A stretch of DNA of 33,697 nt from Chloroflexi bacterium HGW-Chloroflexi-9 (GTDB lineage: Bacteria; Chloroflexota; Dehalococcoidia; UBA2979), in NCBI GenBank assembly GCA_002840675.1, contig PHBR01000018.1:1-33697 (forward strand), given 5' to 3'. The position numbers and the translations under genes were made by a program. This document shows, piece by piece, positions 3,721 through 28,535 of this stretch. The notes beneath the pieces were generated by a model that saw only the letters and a program-made list of their open reading frames with translations, made no database searches and had not been told where the DNA came from. Within the stretch, counting starts at the first letter, position 1, and the number at the start of each line of letters is the position of its first letter.

Positions 3721-4788
3721 TCAGCCGGCCGCCATCGCCGGGACACCCAGGCCGGCCGCCGTCTCCTCCAGCTGGCGCAGCGTCTCGTCGTCCAGCGGAA
3801 TGCCGGAGGCCAGGCGTTCCGCCATCCGGCAGCGCTCCGGCTCACCGGCGAGCAGCACCTCGTCGTGGCCGGGGGCATATGGCGGCTCGGTCACGTGCGC
3901 GGCCAGCGCCTCGTACATCTCGCGCCACGCCTCAGGCTCCGTGAAGCGGCCGAGGTCGAACGCGATCAGCCAGACGCCGTTCGTGCCACGGGCGCCCTCG
4001 ACCGCGGTGCCGGAACCGGAGAGCGCGCCGGAGAGTAGTTCGATCGCCAGGTTCAGCCCGAAGCCCTTGTAGCCGCCGACCGGCCCGCCCACGGGGAGGA
4101 GCGCGCCCGGCTTCGGGTTATCGCCGGTGCCGTAAAAGTCGCGCGCGTCGGTGGTCGGTCGCCCGTCGCCATCGATGATGTCGCCGGGCGGGACGGGTGT
4201 GTTGCGGTTCACGGCGACCTTCAGTTTGCCCTCCGCGATCACGGAAGTCGCCATGTCCAGCACGAACGGCTTTGCGGGGTCGCCGGACGGCAGCGCGATC
4301 ATCAGCGGGTTCGTGCCGGTGCGGCGGTGCCCGCCGCCGAACGCCGCCGTCAGGCGGACGCCCGGCGAGTTCACGCCGCCCATCGCACCGAGGCCGGCGG
4401 CGACGGCCTGCTCCCCGTACGCGCCCACCCGGCCGATGTGGCCGGTGTTGAAGCAGGAGACGAACGCCACGCCCGCCTCGCGCGCCTTCGCGATCGCGAT
4501 CTCCGTGGCGCGTATCGCGACCACCGGCCCCAGGTTCATGCCGCCATCGATCAGCGCGGTCGCGCCGGACTCGCGAGCGATGGTCGTTGGGGCGCCCGGC
4601 CGGAGCACGCCGTCCTTCGCGAGCGCGACATAACCCGGAACGCGGATCACGCCGTGCGAGTCGTGCCCCCGCAGGTTCGCGCCGACGAGGTGGGCCGCGA
4701 CCGTCCGCGCCTCGTCCGGCGGGGAGCCGGCCGCCTCGAAGATCGCGGCGACGTGGTCCTCCAGCGCGCCGGCGGGGACGGACGGCAC
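3721..4788 (-). CDS. Malate/L-lactate dehydrogenase family (Ldh_2) oxidoreductase
   Basis: HDSHGVIRVPGYV, FNTGHIGRVGAYGEQA, GGYKGFGLNLAIELLSGALSG are family signatures. GTG start at 4788 avoids overlap with the upstream aldolase (ORF open from 4842). Confidence 0.92.
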   Translation of the reverse strand: MPSVPAGALEDHVAAIFEAAGSPPDEARTVAAHLVGANLRGHDSHGVIRVPGYVALAKDGVLRPGAPTTIARESGATALIDGGMNLGPVVAIRATEIAIAKAREAGVAFVSCFNTGHIGRVGAYGEQAVAAGLGAMGGVNSPGVRLTAAFGGGHRRTGTNPLMIALPSGDPAKPFVLDMATSVIAEGKLKVAVNRNTPVPPGDIIDGDGRPTTDARDFYGTGDNPKPGALLPVGGPVGGYKGFGLNLAIELLSGALSGSGTAVEGARGTNGVWLIAFDLGRFTEPEAWREMYEALAAHVTEPPYAPGHDEVLLAGEPERCRMAERLASGIPLDDETLRQLEETAAGLGVPAMAAG

Positions 4789-21045: not shown

Positions 21046-22398
21046 ATGGCCGTAGAAACCTCTCCCCCCGCCGGCGCAGCGGACGCGTCGCCCGAGCCGG
21101 GGCGACGACGGCGCCCCAAGATCTACTACGGCTACTACCTCGTCGGCGCGGCATTCTTCGCGCAGATGATCTCGGCGGGCGCGCAGACCTACGTCGCCGG
21201 CGTCTTCCTGGTGCCGATGACGGAGGACCTGGACTGGACCCGGTCTGACTTCACGCTGGCGCAGACGGTTGGCCGCTTCTTCACTGCGTTCCTGGGAATA
21301 TTCCTCGGGACGCTGGTCGACCGGGGGTATGCGCGGCGGCTGATGTTCGCGGGCGCGACGATCATCGGCGCGGCCGTGTTCACGACCTCGTTCGTCACGG
21401 ACCTGTGGCAGTACATCCTGCTGCGCGGCGTGATCCTGGTCATGGGCGCGGCGATGGTCGGCAACCTGGTCGTCAACGTCACCCTCGCCAAGTGGTGGGT
21501 GGAGAAGCGCGGCCGGATGGTCGGCTTCTCCTCGATGGGTGTCTCCGCCGCCGGCGTGTTCCTGCCGCTCGTCCTCACGCCGATCGTGGACGAGTTCGGC
21601 TGGCGGGCCGGCTGGCGGGTCCTGGCGATCATCGCGTGGGCGCTCCTGTATCCGGCCGCCGCCATGATGCGTGGCACGCCGGAGGAGCAGGGACTGAACC
21701 CGGACGGCAAGACGGACGAGGAGATGGCCAGTCCGGCCGGCGACCGCGTCCGCGCCGACTTCGCGAACTCGCTGACCCGTGGCGAGGCGCTGCGGACGCC
21801 CGCCTTCTACCTAATCGTGCTCGCGTTCGGCGTATCCGGCGTGGGCCTGGGGACGATGCTGTTCACCACGATCCCGTTCACCACGGACGCCGGCTTCAGC
21901 CGCACGTTCGCTTCGCTGATGCTGTCGCTGTTCGTCGCGCTGCCGGCGGCGCTCGTGAAGCCGGCCTGGGGCTGGGGTATGGACCGCGTATCGCCGAAGG
22001 TGCTTGCCGCCTCCAGCTTCGTTGTCGCATCGATCGGTTCGGTGGTAGTCGTCTTCGCCGCGCAGGCGGGCGCCGGGGTGATCCTGGCGCTCGGCTTCAT
22101 CCTGGTAGGCACCGGCCTCGGCGGGCAGATCCCGATCCAGGAAGTGATCTGGGGCTCCTACTTCGGGCGGCGCTACCTGGGTGCCGTGCGGAGCGTGGCG
22201 ATGCCGTTCGCGCTCTTCTTCGGCGCCGGCGGCCCGCAGGCGGTGCAGATCTACTACGACCGGGTGGGCAACTACTACGGTGCGTTCCTGGCAGTCGGAG
22301 CGCTCTGGCTGCTGGCTGCGTGCTTCGTCCTGCTGGTGAAGAAGCCGAACCTACCGCAGCGCATCCTGGACGAACGCGCCGCCGCGGCGGCCCGCTAG
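21046..22398 (+). CDS. MFS transporter (monocarboxylate/OFA-like)
   Basis: KIYYGYYLVGAAFFAQMISAGAQTYVAGVFLVPMTEDLDWTRSDFTLAQTVGRF... 12-TM profile. Confidence 0.92.
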   Translation: MAVETSPPAGAADASPEPGRRRRPKIYYGYYLVGAAFFAQMISAGAQTYVAGVFLVPMTEDLDWTRSDFTLAQTVGRFFTAFLGIFLGTLVDRGYARRLMFAGATIIGAAVFTTSFVTDLWQYILLRGVILVMGAAMVGNLVVNVTLAKWWVEKRGRMVGFSSMGVSAAGVFLPLVLTPIVDEFGWRAGWRVLAIIAWALLYPAAAMMRGTPEEQGLNPDGKTDEEMASPAGDRVRADFANSLTRGEALRTPAFYLIVLAFGVSGVGLGTMLFTTIPFTTDAGFSRTFASLMLSLFVALPAALVKPAWGWGMDRVSPKVLAASSFVVASIGSVVVVFAAQAGAGVILALGFILVGTGLGGQIPIQEVIWGSYFGRRYLGAVRSVAMPFALFFGAGGPQAVQIYYDRVGNYYGAFLAVGALWLLAACFVLLVKKPNLPQRILDERAAAAAR

Positions 22399-22697
22399 GC
22401 GCCCCTGCGAATCGTCGCCGTCAGGCGGTGTGATTCCAGGCGGTCGCGGTAGAGTTCGGCGCGCTCCAGCGGGCAGGTGATCACGTCCGCGCGTCCGTGT
22501 TCGTGCGCCGTCAGCATCACCTCGACCGCCCGCTCCACGGTCAGTTCCGGCACGGACACCAGCAGCGCGCGCACCACATGGTCCATGCTGTTCACATCGT
22601 CGTTGTGGAGCACCACCGTGTATGGCGGCAGCGTCGCCTCGATCGGCCGTTCGGCCGACCGCGTCTCCGCCTCGCGGGTGGGAGCGTCCGAGGTCAT
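22395..22697 (-). CDS. clpS: ATP-dependent Clp protease adaptor ClpS
   Basis: PPYTVVLHNDDVNSMDHVVRALLVSVPELTVERAVEVMLTAHEHGRADVITCPLERAELYRDRL: canonical NDD...MD...AHEHG. Confidence 0.94.
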   Translation of the reverse strand: MTSDAPTREAETRSAERPIEATLPPYTVVLHNDDVNSMDHVVRALLVSVPELTVERAVEVMLTAHEHGRADVITCPLERAELYRDRLESHRLTATIRRGA

Positions 22698-23548: not shown

Positions 23549-25087
23549 TCAGGCCCGGGGCGTGAGCCGTTCGATGATCGCGCGCCGGAGCACCTTGCCG
23601 TTACGCGTGCGCGGCAGCGGCTCCGACTGGAGCAGGTACTGGTGCGGGCGCTTGTACTCCGCCAGGTGCTGCGCCGCGAACTCCTGGAGCGCGGCGACGT
23701 CCAGGGCGGTGTCCGGCTGCGGGACGACGCACGCGGTCACCAGTGTCTTGCCGGTGTCCACGGCCAGCCCCACCACCGCCACCTCCAGCACGCCGGGCGC
23801 GCCTGACAGCGCGTGCTCGATCTCCACAGGCGACAGCCGGTAGCCGAAGGACTTGATGAGGTCATCGTGGCGGCCGTGGAACCAGACGTAGCCGTCCGTG
23901 TCGATCGAGGCGAGGTCGCCGCCGGTGAACCACTCGCCGCGGAAGACCTCCGCCTGTTCCACCGGCCGGCGCCAGTAGCCCAGCATCAGCCCGGGGTCGG
24001 AGCGGTGCACCGCCAGCAGCCCCACCTGGCCGGGCGGGAGCGGCGTCGTGCTGTCGCTGTCAGCGTCGAGGATCGCGACGCGGCGGCCGGGCTGTGGACG
24101 GCCGGGCGAACCGGCGCGCACCGGAATGGTCGGGCCGCTGGAGATGTACGTGCTGACCTCGGTCATGCCGAGCGATTCGTACATCTCCGTCCCGGCGCGG
24201 GCGCGCCATTCGTCGCGGAGGGTCGGTGGGAGCGGTTCGCCGGCGCAGAGCACGTGGCGGAGGCGGGAGAGGTCGTGCGCCTCCGGCTGCCCGTACTTCA
24301 GCATCTGGCGGTAGACGGTGGGCACGGCGGCGAACACGGTCACGCCGAGGCGCTCCATCAGCGCGGGCCAGCCATCCGCGCCGGAGACGCCTGCCGCCAG
24401 CACGGCGTGCGCGCCCGCCGCCCACGGGTCCATCAGCCCCACGCCCAGCGTGTACGACCAGTTGAGGGTGCCCGCGTGCAGCGTCACGTCGCCGGGCTGG
24501 AAGCCCTGCCACGCCTCGCGCATCATCGCGCGGCCGTACACGGTGCGGTGCGCGTGCAGCACGCCCTTCGGCCGGTCCGTGGTGCCGGAGGTGTAGATGA
24601 GGAACGCCGGGTCTTCCGCATGCGTCTCCGGCAGCGGTCCGTCGCCATCCAGGGCGTCCAGGGCGCTCGCGTCCACCCACGCGCCGGTCGCGCCGGCCAG
24701 GCGCAGGGCAGGCGTCGTGATCGAGGCGGCGGCCTCCGAGTCGGCGGCGAGGAACGCGGCCTCCTCGTCCGTCAGCGCGGGCGAGGCGGGGATGGGGACG
24801 AGGCCCGCGACGGTCGCGCCGAGGAAGGCGAAGGCGTAGTCCGGAGAGTGGGGGAGCCGCACCAGCACGCGGTCGCCGGGGGCGAGACCGCGCGCGAGGA
24901 GCCCGCGCCCGATCCGCTGCACGCGTGTCCACGCCTCGGCTGCCGTCCACGTGTCAGTGTGGCCGTCCTCGTGGACGAAAGTGAAGGCGGGCGCGTGCGC
25001 CCGGGCCGGGTCTTCGGCGCGGTCGCCGAGGCACCAGCGAGCCAGGTTCAGGGGCGGGTTGGAGGCCGGCGTCGCGGGCTGATTCAC
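23549..25087 (-). CDS. AMP-binding acyl-CoA synthetase (benzoate-CoA ligase-like)
   Basis: FLIYTSGTTDRPKGVLHAHR, YESLGMTEVS, YWRRPVEQAEVFRGEWFTGGDLASIDTDGYVWFHGRHDDLIKSFGYRLSPVEIE, LPRTRNGKVLRR. GTG start at 25087. Confidence 0.93.
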   Translation of the reverse strand: MNQPATPASNPPLNLARWCLGDRAEDPARAHAPAFTFVHEDGHTDTWTAAEAWTRVQRIGRGLLARGLAPGDRVLVRLPHSPDYAFAFLGATVAGLVPIPASPALTDEEAAFLAADSEAAASITTPALRLAGATGAWVDASALDALDGDGPLPETHAEDPAFLIYTSGTTDRPKGVLHAHRTVYGRAMMREAWQGFQPGDVTLHAGTLNWSYTLGVGLMDPWAAGAHAVLAAGVSGADGWPALMERLGVTVFAAVPTVYRQMLKYGQPEAHDLSRLRHVLCAGEPLPPTLRDEWRARAGTEMYESLGMTEVSTYISSGPTIPVRAGSPGRPQPGRRVAILDADSDSTTPLPPGQVGLLAVHRSDPGLMLGYWRRPVEQAEVFRGEWFTGGDLASIDTDGYVWFHGRHDDLIKSFGYRLSPVEIEHALSGAPGVLEVAVVGLAVDTGKTLVTACVVPQPDTALDVAALQEFAAQHLAEYKRPHQYLLQSEPLPRTRNGKVLRRAIIERLTPRA

Positions 25088-25122
25088 GCCGCCAGTGTAC
25101 GCGCGGCCTCCGCGCCGCTCAC

Positions 25123-25530
25123 TCAGGCGATCAAGGCGTAGACGAGTCCGGCCAGCGCGAAGCCAAGCACGGCGTACGACGTGTTGATCGCGTACAGCGC
25201 CCACGGGGCCTGCTCGTACACCACGCTCTTGATCGACTCCATCGCCACCACGCCGGCGCCGATGATCAGGCCGACGACCAGACCGTCCACCGGCCCAGTG
25301 CCGCCGGCCCATTCGTAGACCGCGCCGATGACAAGGGTGGAGACGATCCCGGCGATGGCGGTCAGGCCCATCATCGCGGGCGGCGCGCCGGGGTCGTCCG
25401 CGGCCATGCCGCGGAGCGCCATCCAGCGCTTGCCGAAGAGCAACGTGTACCAGAGCGCGCCGAAGGCGAAGTACGCGACTCCGCCGGCGACGGCCGCCAG
25501 GTAGTTCAGATCCGGGGATGCCAGGCCCAT
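25123..25530 (-). CDS. DUF1761 domain-containing membrane protein
   Basis: LNYLAAVAGGVAYFAFGALWYTLLFGKRWMALRGM..., YAINTSYAVLGFALAGLVYALI. Confidence 0.85.
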   Translation of the reverse strand: MGLASPDLNYLAAVAGGVAYFAFGALWYTLLFGKRWMALRGMAADDPGAPPAMMGLTAIAGIVSTLVIGAVYEWAGGTGPVDGLVVGLIIGAGVVAMESIKSVVYEQAPWALYAINTSYAVLGFALAGLVYALIA

Positions 25531-25579
25531 ACGTCCTCCCGCACCCCGCGCCGCAACCACGAGTGTAATCGACGTGCGG

Positions 25580-25915
25580 CTAGTCGAGTCGCTCGAGGAT
25601 CGCGGACATGGAGCCCTTCGACTGTGGGAGGCGAGGGTCCGCGCCGTACGCGTGGACGGCGGTCTGCTTCGCCTCGCACGCGTCGCGGCTGGCGGTCATC
25701 AGCGTGACGCGGCCCTGCGTGTCCACGATGCGCGCGAGGGCAAACGCTTTCTCCGTGCTATAGCCGAAGACCGCGCCCAGCATCTCGATCACGTAGTCGT
25801 AGGTGTGGTCGTTGTCGTCCAGCAGGATCAGTTGCCAGAGCCGGTCGACTTCCGGCGCGATCTCTTCGATGCGGCCGGGGGTGATCGTCGGGCGGGTCGT
25901 GGCGGTGGGGTGCAT
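25580..25915 (-). CDS. ClpS-family adaptor, divergent paralogue
   Basis: LWQLILLDDNDHTYDYVIEMLGAVFGYSTEKAFALARIVDTQGRVTLMTASRDACEAKQTAVHAYGADPRL aligns without gaps to the ClpS core around the NDD and H66 positions. Confidence 0.85.
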   Translation of the reverse strand: MHPTATTRPTITPGRIEEIAPEVDRLWQLILLDDNDHTYDYVIEMLGAVFGYSTEKAFALARIVDTQGRVTLMTASRDACEAKQTAVHAYGADPRLPQSKGSMSAILERLD

Positions 25916-25931: not shown

Positions 25932-26966
25932 CTATTCGTCGACGGCCGGGAGGACGAGCGGCTGCGTGCGCAGGCCGAGGGCGATCGGCCCCGCCCCGCC
26001 GAGGCGCTCGTGCGGGCCCACGCGGACGCGCACCTCGGCGCCGCTGTGCAGGCGGACGTGTAGCACCTGGTCGTGGCCGTAGTACTCGCGGGCGATCACC
26101 TCGCCGCCGATGCCGCCGGCCATGATCTGCAGTTCCTCCGGGCGTACCACCACGGCGACGCGGTCCGCGCCCTCCGGCGCGGGCAGTTCGCCGAAGGGGG
26201 TCTGGACGCGGCCGCCCTGGGCGCGGAGCCGGTAGATATTCGCGTCGCCAATGAAGTCGGCGGCGTGGACGGTGGTGGGGCGCGAGTAGATCTCGTCCGG
26301 GGTGCCGACCTGTTCCACGCGCCCGCGCCACATGAACGCGATCCGGTCCGCGATCGAAAGCGCCTCCTCCTGGTCGTGGGTAACGAGGACGGCGGTGGTG
26401 CCCGCGAGTTTCACGATCTCGCGCACCTCCGCCCGCACGCGCGCGCGGAGTGACGGGTCGAGGTTGGAGAACGGCTCGTCCAGCAGCAGCAGCCGCGGCC
26501 TCGGCGCCAGCGCACGGGCCAGTGCGACGCGCTGCTGCTCGCCGCCGGAGAGCTCGTGCACGGCCCGCTCGCCGAGCGCGCCCAGGCCGGTCAGGTCCAG
26601 TATCTCCGCGACGCGCGCCGCGCGGTCGGGCGCCTTCGACAGGCCATAGGCCACGTTCTCCGCCACGCTCATGTGCGGGAATAGCGCGTAGTCCTGGAAC
26701 ACCATGCCGACGCGCCGCCGCTCCGCGGGGACGAACGCGTCCTCGCCGGCGACGAGGTCGTCGAACAGCCACAGCGAGCCGGAGTCCGGGCGCTCGAACC
26801 CGGCGAGCAGCCGGAGCGACGTGGTCTTGCCGCAGCCGGAGGGCCCGAGGATCGCGAAGAGTTCGCCGGCGTACACCTCCAGCGAGAGGTCGTGCACGGC
26901 GATCGTGTCGCCGAGGCGGCACGAGAGCCCCTGGGCGCGGACGGCGATCCGGAGCGGGTCGGGCAT
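25932..26966 (-). CDS. ABC transporter ATP-binding protein, Fe3+/FbpC-like
   Basis: LGPSGCGKTTSLRLLAGFERPDSG (Walker A), LSGGEQQRVALARALAPRPRLLLLDEPFSNLD. ATG at 26966; the 867 aa ORF is a fusion artefact with the permease frame. Confidence 0.93.
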   Translation of the reverse strand: MPDPLRIAVRAQGLSCRLGDTIAVHDLSLEVYAGELFAILGPSGCGKTTSLRLLAGFERPDSGSLWLFDDLVAGEDAFVPAERRRVGMVFQDYALFPHMSVAENVAYGLSKAPDRAARVAEILDLTGLGALGERAVHELSGGEQQRVALARALAPRPRLLLLDEPFSNLDPSLRARVRAEVREIVKLAGTTAVLVTHDQEEALSIADRIAFMWRGRVEQVGTPDEIYSRPTTVHAADFIGDANIYRLRAQGGRVQTPFGELPAPEGADRVAVVVRPEELQIMAGGIGGEVIAREYYGHDQVLHVRLHSGAEVRVRVGPHERLGGAGPIALGLRTQPLVLPAVDE

Positions 26967-26968
26967 GG

Positions 26969-28535
26969 TTACCGCCTCGTCCCAAAATTCAGCACGAGCA
27001 GCGCCAGGAGCGAAATGCCCACGAGGATCAGGGCGGGCAGGGCCGCCTCCCCGTAGCGGGCGTCGCTGGAGGCGGACCAGACGCGCGTCGCCAGCGTCTG
27101 GAAGCCGGGCGGCGCGAGGATCAGCGTGGCGGGCAGTTCCTTGATGGTGGTGAGGAAGACCAGCGCCGCGCCGGCGATCACGCCCCGACCGGCCAGCGGC
27201 AGCGTGATCGTGCGGAGGACCCCCGCGGGACGCCGTCCGAGGCCGCGCGCCGCCTCCTCCATCGAGGGACGCACGCGCAGCAGGGCGACGCGCGTTGCGT
27301 TCGTCGCCTGCGGCAGGAACAGCATGACGTAGGCGATCACCAGGATGGTGAGCGACTGGTACAGCCACGCGAACCGGATCGCGGAGAACACCAGCGCCAG
27401 GCCGACGACCAGCCCGGGGAGCGCGTAGCCCGTGTACGAAAGTACCTCCACGATCCGGCTGAACCAGTTGCCTCGGTAGCGGACGCCGAGGATGGCGACG
27501 GGCAGCGCGACCACCGCCGCGGCCCCGGCGGCGAGCGCGGCAGCGGTGACCGAGTTGCCGATCACGTCGTTCACGCCTCGGAAGGCGATCCCCGCGTCCA
27601 AGCCGCGCAGCACCCAGTGCGTGAGCACGGCGACGGGCACGACCAGCGCGATGCCGACGACGAGCGCGACGAACCCGTAGGAGGCCCACCGCCAGCGTCC
27701 GAGCGCGACGGGCACCGGCGGGCGGCCTGCCTCGCGCACGGAGGGCGAGCGTGGCAGCGTTGCCGCGGTCGAAGGCGGACTGGTAGCGGATGAAGATCAC
27801 GCGGGTGAAGGAGTCGAAGCGCATCAACGACGGCGTGCCGAAGTCAGACAGCGCGTAGAGGGCGACAAGCAGGCTGCCGGAGAAGAGCGCCGGGCGGATC
27901 TGCGGCAGGACGACGCGCACGAAGGTGGTGATGCGCCCGTAGCCGAACGTCCGCGACATCTCCTCCAGCCGGGGATCGAGCGTGGCGAGGGCGGGACGGA
28001 GCGTCAGGAACAGGTACGGGTAGGTGAACATCGTGAGCGCAAGCGTGGCCCCGACCCAACCGTAGATCGAGGGCAGGCGCTCGACGCCCCACGGCTCCAG
28101 CAGTCCCTGCACCAGGCCCCGCGGGCCGAAGGCGGAGATGAAGGTGAGCGCGCCGACGTAGGACGGCACGGCGAGCGGCAGCGCCGCGAGCACGCCGATC
28201 AACCGCCGCCCCCTGAGGTCGGAGCGTTCCACGAGCCACGCCATCGGCAGGGCGATTGCGGTGGCGGCGGCGGTGACGGCGGCGGCGAAGAGCACCGTGC
28301 GCACGAGCAGCTGCCCGGTGGTGCGCGCCAGCAGCACGTCGCGCGCCGTGTCCGCGCTCTCCAGCGCCCGCACCACCAGGTAGACGGGGGGGAGCAGGCT
28401 GGCGCCCGCGACGATCAGCCCCGCGAGCACGAGCCAGGGGCCCGGCACATGGCCTCGCGGCCAGCGGACGAGGCGCCGGTGCGTCACGGGGAGGCTGGTC
28501 AACGGGCCGCGCTCCGGGCAGCCTGTGGCAGGCAC
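26969..28535 (-). pseudogene. Fe3+ ABC transporter permease, FbpB-like, frame-disrupted
   Basis: N-half (28535 to about 27755, ...SLMRFDSFTRVIFIRYQSAFDRGNAATLAL) and C-half (27739-26969, VREAGRPPVPVALGRWRWASYGFVALVVGIALVVPVAVL...) are in different frames. Confidence 0.65.

Follow-up and report, generated by a model that had tools for sequence, protein, structure and literature searches.

The window analysed here, a 33,697-nt stretch of contig PHBR01000018.1 from Chloroflexi bacterium HGW-Chloroflexi-9, harbors both of the clpS genes present in this assembly: a variant gene at 25580..25915 (-), which encodes a 111-aa protein with an ATG start, and a canonical gene at 22395..22697 (-), whose product scores 62.3 bits against the Pfam ClpS model. 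The two genes belong to a co-directional run extending from 28535 to 22395. It begins with the FbpB/FbpC-type transporter ORF (25932..28535, (-); domains BPD_transp_1, ABC_tran, and TOBE_2), continues with the variant clpS, a gene for a protein with the Pfam domain DUF1761 (25123..25560, (-)), and an AMP-binding gene of the acid-CoA ligase type according to its domain match (23549..25312, (-)), and passes through TauE-like ORFs to the canonical clpS. The stop codon of fbpC (TAG) is separated from the variant clpS ATG by 16 nt (GAATAG-CGGCCAGGTCACGCCG-ATG), exactly as the initial annotation had reported. The same annotation placed the gene at the end of an iron-transport operon, which is not the case: the variant clpS lies inside the run, and the DUF1761, AMP-ligase, TauE-like, and canonical clpS genes all follow it. 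Co-transcription of the variant clpS with the fbp genes is possible at this locus. The fbpB permease gene itself is apparently broken at 27640-27860, with its halves in different frames; in comparison with the close relative L034, where the halves share one frame, about 70 bases seem to be missing from the window, and the break appears to be either a deletion or an assembly error.

ClpS is a bacterial N-recognin, the canonical form of which reads N-terminal F/L/W/Y. The ORF at 25580..25915 is a genuine ClpS, as its designation as a ClpS-like adaptor had implied: it reaches 55.8 bits with the Pfam ClpS family PF02617 (cut-off 23), and an AlphaFold2 model built from 71 sequences has a ClpS core with a pLDDT of 84 (model m37f7958b2c30; elements E27-32, H39-50, H54-67, E69-75, H77-89, and E104-109). 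In a Foldseek comparison with the PDB, the top matches of this model are all ClpS structures, with a TM-score of up to 0.93-0.94 (normalised to the target) and an rmsd of 1.0 for 9b1p from Mycobacterium smegmatis, and a target-normalised score (TMt) of about 0.85 for E. coli ClpS. ClpS proteins begin with an extension of some 20-25 disordered residues. The corresponding segment of the variant (25839..25915, (-)) is predicted to be disordered over its first 20 residues (pLDDT 50-56), a feature shared with E. coli ClpS. The NCBIfam equivalog models are less hospitable: the variant falls far under every curated cut-off (34.3 at best vs 86), and the window's canonical ClpS is likewise below its own (90.9 vs 107).

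The variant aligns to E. coli ClpS without gaps across the pocket by both phmmer and MAFFT, in agreement with the gapless core alignment claimed earlier; the E. coli core used as a ruler was checked against the published numbering and PDB alignments. In E. coli numbering, the variant has D34, D35, N36, D37, H38, T39, Y40, A62, V65, D66, and M99, so that its own residues D33, D34, N35, H37, Y39, A61, D65, and M103 represent E. coli positions 34, 35, 36, 38, 40, 62, 66, and 99. In canonical ClpS, the α-amine of the substrate is contacted by N34, D36, and H66, and M40 serves as the gatekeeper; these four positions are occupied in the variant by D, N, D, and Y. The five states given in the initial annotation (D for N34, retained D35, N for D36, Y for M40, and D for H66) were all reproduced by the two alignments, and three more substitutions, T38 to H, M62 to A, and L99 to M, had been overlooked. 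The canonical paralogue at 22395-22697 indeed keeps the ordinary pocket, as had been said (N34, D35, D36, M40, and H66, together with M62 and L99 in the MAFFT alignment). Altogether, the variant shares with the canonical ClpS proteins of E. coli, Caulobacter, and M. smegmatis the fold, the gapless core, D35, V43, the tail, and the docking positions E/D79, E82, and K84, and differs from them by T38H, M40Y, M62A, H66D, and L99M, at an overall identity of about 24%.

The remodelling is fixed. Among 85 distinct variants aligned with MAFFT, H38, Y40, A62, and D66 are each found in 85/85 and M99 in 84/85, while the 45 canonical sequences mostly have N, M, M, H (in all 45), and L at positions 38, 40, 62, 66, and 99, respectively. 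Further marks of the variants are H89 and a C-terminal block G-D-P-R...(K)GSM(S/T)A. The substitution at position 34, which had been listed as part of the remodelling, is not diagnostic, because D34 (present in 73 of the 85 variants, the remaining 12 having N) also occurs in ordinary ClpS, namely in the M. smegmatis ClpS whose structure was determined with N-degron dipeptides, and in planctomycete DDP-type ClpS. Tolerance of N34D in a protein that binds N-degrons, the retention of D35, and the ability of D66 or D/N36 to accept an amine would all fit a pocket of ordinary F/L/W/Y specificity in which the substitutions compensate for one another. We regard this as improbable, since the five pocket positions shift together and, across the sampled cellular genomes, are hardly ever combined with canonical residues, and a redundant copy beside a canonical paralogue would not need a fixed difference.

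A Pfam-based search of 60 relatives, in which each match was retrieved, included 36 genomes of the window's Dehalococcoidia family; the variant is encoded in 29 of these 36 and canonical ClpS in 24. In three genera (g2, g8, and g15, with two, three, and two genomes, respectively) the variant was found alone, with no canonical ClpS detected, and on these grounds the variant is not accessory to canonical ClpS, allowing for incomplete assemblies. Both forms are encoded in the genome of the cultured Tepidiforma flava (L128). G006 and G020, two small genomes from the window's family, encode ClpC and ClpP and gave no ClpS match of either kind. Beyond the family, more than 500 relatives came out of a motif-seeded scan of named genomes, and the top 80 of them are mainly from Dehalococcoidia and Planctomycetota; the invariance seen in these loci is partly a product of selection because the seeds included H.Y and GSM.A. 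The Pfam- and profile-based searches, which were not motif-seeded, agree with the same signature: in a sample of Planctomycetota, a variant-type score of more than 75 bits is reached in 22/119 genomes, and H38, Y40, and D66 are present in 19/19 of the variants retrieved by the profile, with no motif selection. Across Chloroflexota as a whole the variant is rare (2/201 genomes sampled, including that of the window). A search for plasmid carriage of the variant clpS gave no match. In the Planctomycetota sample, one locus (L273, genome G317) has two or three divergent ClpS-like ORFs adjoining within 1.7 kb, only one of them with a canonical pocket.

The phylogeny of the paralogues, proposed earlier as a check, places the variants on one side of a single branch that splits them from canonical ClpS with an SH-aLRT of 99; the alignment (131 rows) is only 92 columns long, and the tree was for that reason used for this main split only. 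Between close relatives, dN/dS ranges from 0.14 to 0.33 (the G010 and canonical G029 pairs, being out of frame, were left out). The variants are thus an orthologous subfamily with a fixed multi-position signature under purifying selection. A decaying clpS duplicate would account for the loss of the canonical residues and for nothing else; conservation across genera and phyla, the single clade, and the dN/dS values refute it, and we give it practically no credence. Both of the outcomes named in advance as fatal to the initial interpretation, a degraded copy and a paralogue lacking conservation, thereby failed to materialize.

The gene neighborhood is much less constant than the pocket. An fbp block lies upstream of the variant clpS in about one-third of the family, with the window's genus and some eight further genomes showing this arrangement; in most of the others, its place is taken by genes for a nucleotidyltransferase and an FAD oxidoreductase transcribed away from clpS. 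The commonest downstream neighbour in the family is the AMP-binding ligase. Outside the family, no Fbp–clpS adjacency was seen among the loci examined and no conserved neighbours of the variant clpS were found, the neighbour clusters there consisting mostly of opposite-strand shadow ORFs or unrelated genes (CoA transferase, histidine kinase). The case for an iron-transport role fails because the adjacency is confined to a minority of the family, and the iron operon was rejected as the functional context on the basis of synteny. An adaptor reserved for a substrate of the adjacent ferric transporter, which the shared strand, the 16-nt spacing, and the adjoining fbp genes in some related genera might suggest, is accordingly very improbable: some two-thirds of the family and all outside loci have no adjoining fbp genes, and the steadier neighbours are the AMP-ligase, the nucleotidyltransferase, and the FAD oxidoreductase. 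In two Gemmatales, a gene for an FHA-GAF-SpoIIE phosphatase directly precedes the variant clpS (L130:4050-5813 and L123:4244-5908).

In E. coli ClpS, the residues that bind the ClpA N-domain are E79, E82, and K84, according to a 2025 report (PMC12493166). The window's variant has D79, E82, and K84, nearly all planctomycete variants have E79, E82, and K84, and the docking positions are largely kept in the subfamily as a whole. Several Dehalococcoidia variants have T/R at position 82 and H/N at position 84 in place of E and K, and docking is possibly weakened in them for this reason. The window's genome encodes a Clp_N unfoldase together with ClpP: ClpC is split into two contig-end pieces (C108 and C115), ClpB is on C58, and ClpP is on C134. 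Absence of ClpC from some relatives was considered and rejected; the apparent gaps are likely due to assembly because ClpC-like fragments are present in G013 and G012. Leu/Phe-tRNA-protein transferase, which turns N-terminal Arg/Lys into a canonical degron, was not found in any of the 35 relatives searched, while all four control genomes were matched.

The remodelled pocket has a precedent: it had been noted earlier in one protein, ClpS1 of Leptospira interrogans (LIC11356), where a 2025 study describes replacement of the conserved His by Asp and of the gatekeeper Met by Tyr (PMC12493166). Judged from the residues listed in that source, 11 of 12 pocket residues of Leptospira ClpS1 are identical to those of the window's variant at an offset of +3 (L28, D30, D31, N32, H34, Y36, V39, A58, V61, D62, and M100); the next best offset gives 2/12, and the window's canonical ClpS gives 3. 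Like the variant, Leptospira ClpS1 coexists with a canonical ClpS and has a disordered N-terminal tail. It differs by W29, where the variant has L, and, at the position corresponding to the docking residue K84, by V80 instead of the K of the variant; its partner in that study was ClpA, whereas the window's genome has ClpC. No paper treating this form as a subfamily was found in the open literature, most subscription papers being outside the scope of the search.

Among other ClpS paralogues, cyanobacterial ClpS2, Agrobacterium ClpS2, plant ClpS1, and apicoplast ClpS have been described, several of them with shifted N-degron preferences (PMC7966870); these preferences shift mainly among hydrophobic residues. 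None of these forms was seen to carry the H38/Y40/D66 signature in a comparison short of a full pocket alignment. The variant matches Agrobacterium ClpS2 (4yjm) and plant ClpS1 (7d34) less well in both fold and sequence.

The only biochemistry available on a member of the subfamily bears on whether the variant delivers substrates at all. Leptospira ClpS1 has a Kd of 0.44 µM for ClpA, whose N-domain is required for the binding, lowers the ClpA ATPase by 57%, slows degradation of an SsrA substrate, and inhibits ClpA self-degradation; a different specificity of the protein is the authors' suggestion only (PMC12493166). These effects are inhibition, not delivery, and K84 is absent from Leptospira ClpS1 too, both of which count against an adaptor. 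The variant might then be a non-delivering regulator that occupies the ClpC N-domain and the tail site and dampens ClpC or competes with canonical ClpS and other adaptors, with no binding of N-degrons. The loss of the amine-contacting His and the bulky Tyr gate in all 85 variants are compatible with such a role, as is the position of canonical clpS, which in about a dozen relatives has the same orientation as the variant gene and lies near it (the two are nearly side by side in L085 and L086), so that both proteins could be produced together. Yet E. coli ClpS inhibits in the same way and is a delivery adaptor (PMC12493166), a mere blocker would not require five pocket positions to be conserved across phyla, and the variant persists in genera with no canonical ClpS found. 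A pure regulator therefore seems to us unlikely, though it deserves the most serious attention among the alternatives.

Our preferred reading, which we hold to be somewhat probable, is that the variant acts as a second ClpCP adaptor for a different N-terminal or cationic degron. It is favored by the combination of an adaptor fold, tail, and docking face with a conserved altered pocket and with acidic groups at positions 34, 36, and 66 suited to an amine: since the pocket is conserved, it is probably used, and since five positions of its chamber are changed, it probably reads something else. By homology, including that with Leptospira ClpS1, the folded core would use its conserved face, formed by positions 79, 82, and 84, to dock on the N-domain of ClpC, and the disordered N-terminal tail would engage the unfoldase as in other ClpS proteins. 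Acidic acceptors for a protonated amine would be retained (D/N34, D35, D/N36, and D66 replacing H66), and the side-chain chamber would be altered by Y40, H38, A62, and M99 in place of M40, T38, M62, and L99. The ligand of such a pocket is most likely still an N-terminus or some other cationic group, of a residue class other than F/L/W/Y, and the variant would hand its own substrates to ClpCP alongside canonical ClpS. As for the altered or lost N-end rule specificity and the dedicated adaptor initially proposed, the fixed and selected signature, the docking positions, and the variant-only genera speak for this idea, the change of specificity itself is deduced from the pocket, and its iron-related part has found no support.

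A bolder version, to which we attach a rather low probability, is that there exists a widespread class of bacterial N-degrons read only by the variant subfamily. The acid-rich pocket (D/N34, D35, D/N36, and D66, with H38 and Y40) would take N-termini that canonical ClpS rejects, candidates being basic (Arg/Lys) or small and β-branched residues, and a direct reader of the Arg/Lys type would be needed because Leu/Phe-transferase was absent from the search of the 35 relatives. A variant pocket fixed across several phyla suggests an unrecognised degradation signal, and the two forms of ClpS imply either a degron code beyond F/L/W/Y in Dehalococcoidia, Planctomycetota, and Leptospira or ClpS-fold proteins that are pure regulators. 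In these phyla, the name "ClpS" would not be a safe basis for inferring N-end rule activity because Pfam merges the two forms and the NCBIfam models do not separate them.

Intermediate pockets also exist. A planctomycete protein (L255) has W40 together with H66, and several viral-contig proteins combine H38 and H66 with V or E at position 40, which suggests that the pocket may have changed stepwise, H38 being acquired earlier than Y40 and D66. These viral proteins, which belong to the GSM(S/T)A class, come from IMG/VR contigs L225 and L227-L232 (43-408 kb, several of jumbo-phage size); examples are L228:2920-3258 and L231:3004-3348. H38 and H66 with V or E at position 40 are found in L228-L231, and the complete H38/Y40/D66 set in L227 and L232. 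Viral ClpS may serve to redirect the host Clp protease. In the loci L223, L224, and L226, a second ORF (3883-4032), about 650 bp past the ClpS gene, is a partial duplicate of the C-terminal block only (RVHAFGPDPLVPRCRGSMTCIIEPV). The viral ClpS proteins match the existing PHROGs families phrog_27368 and phrog_15940.
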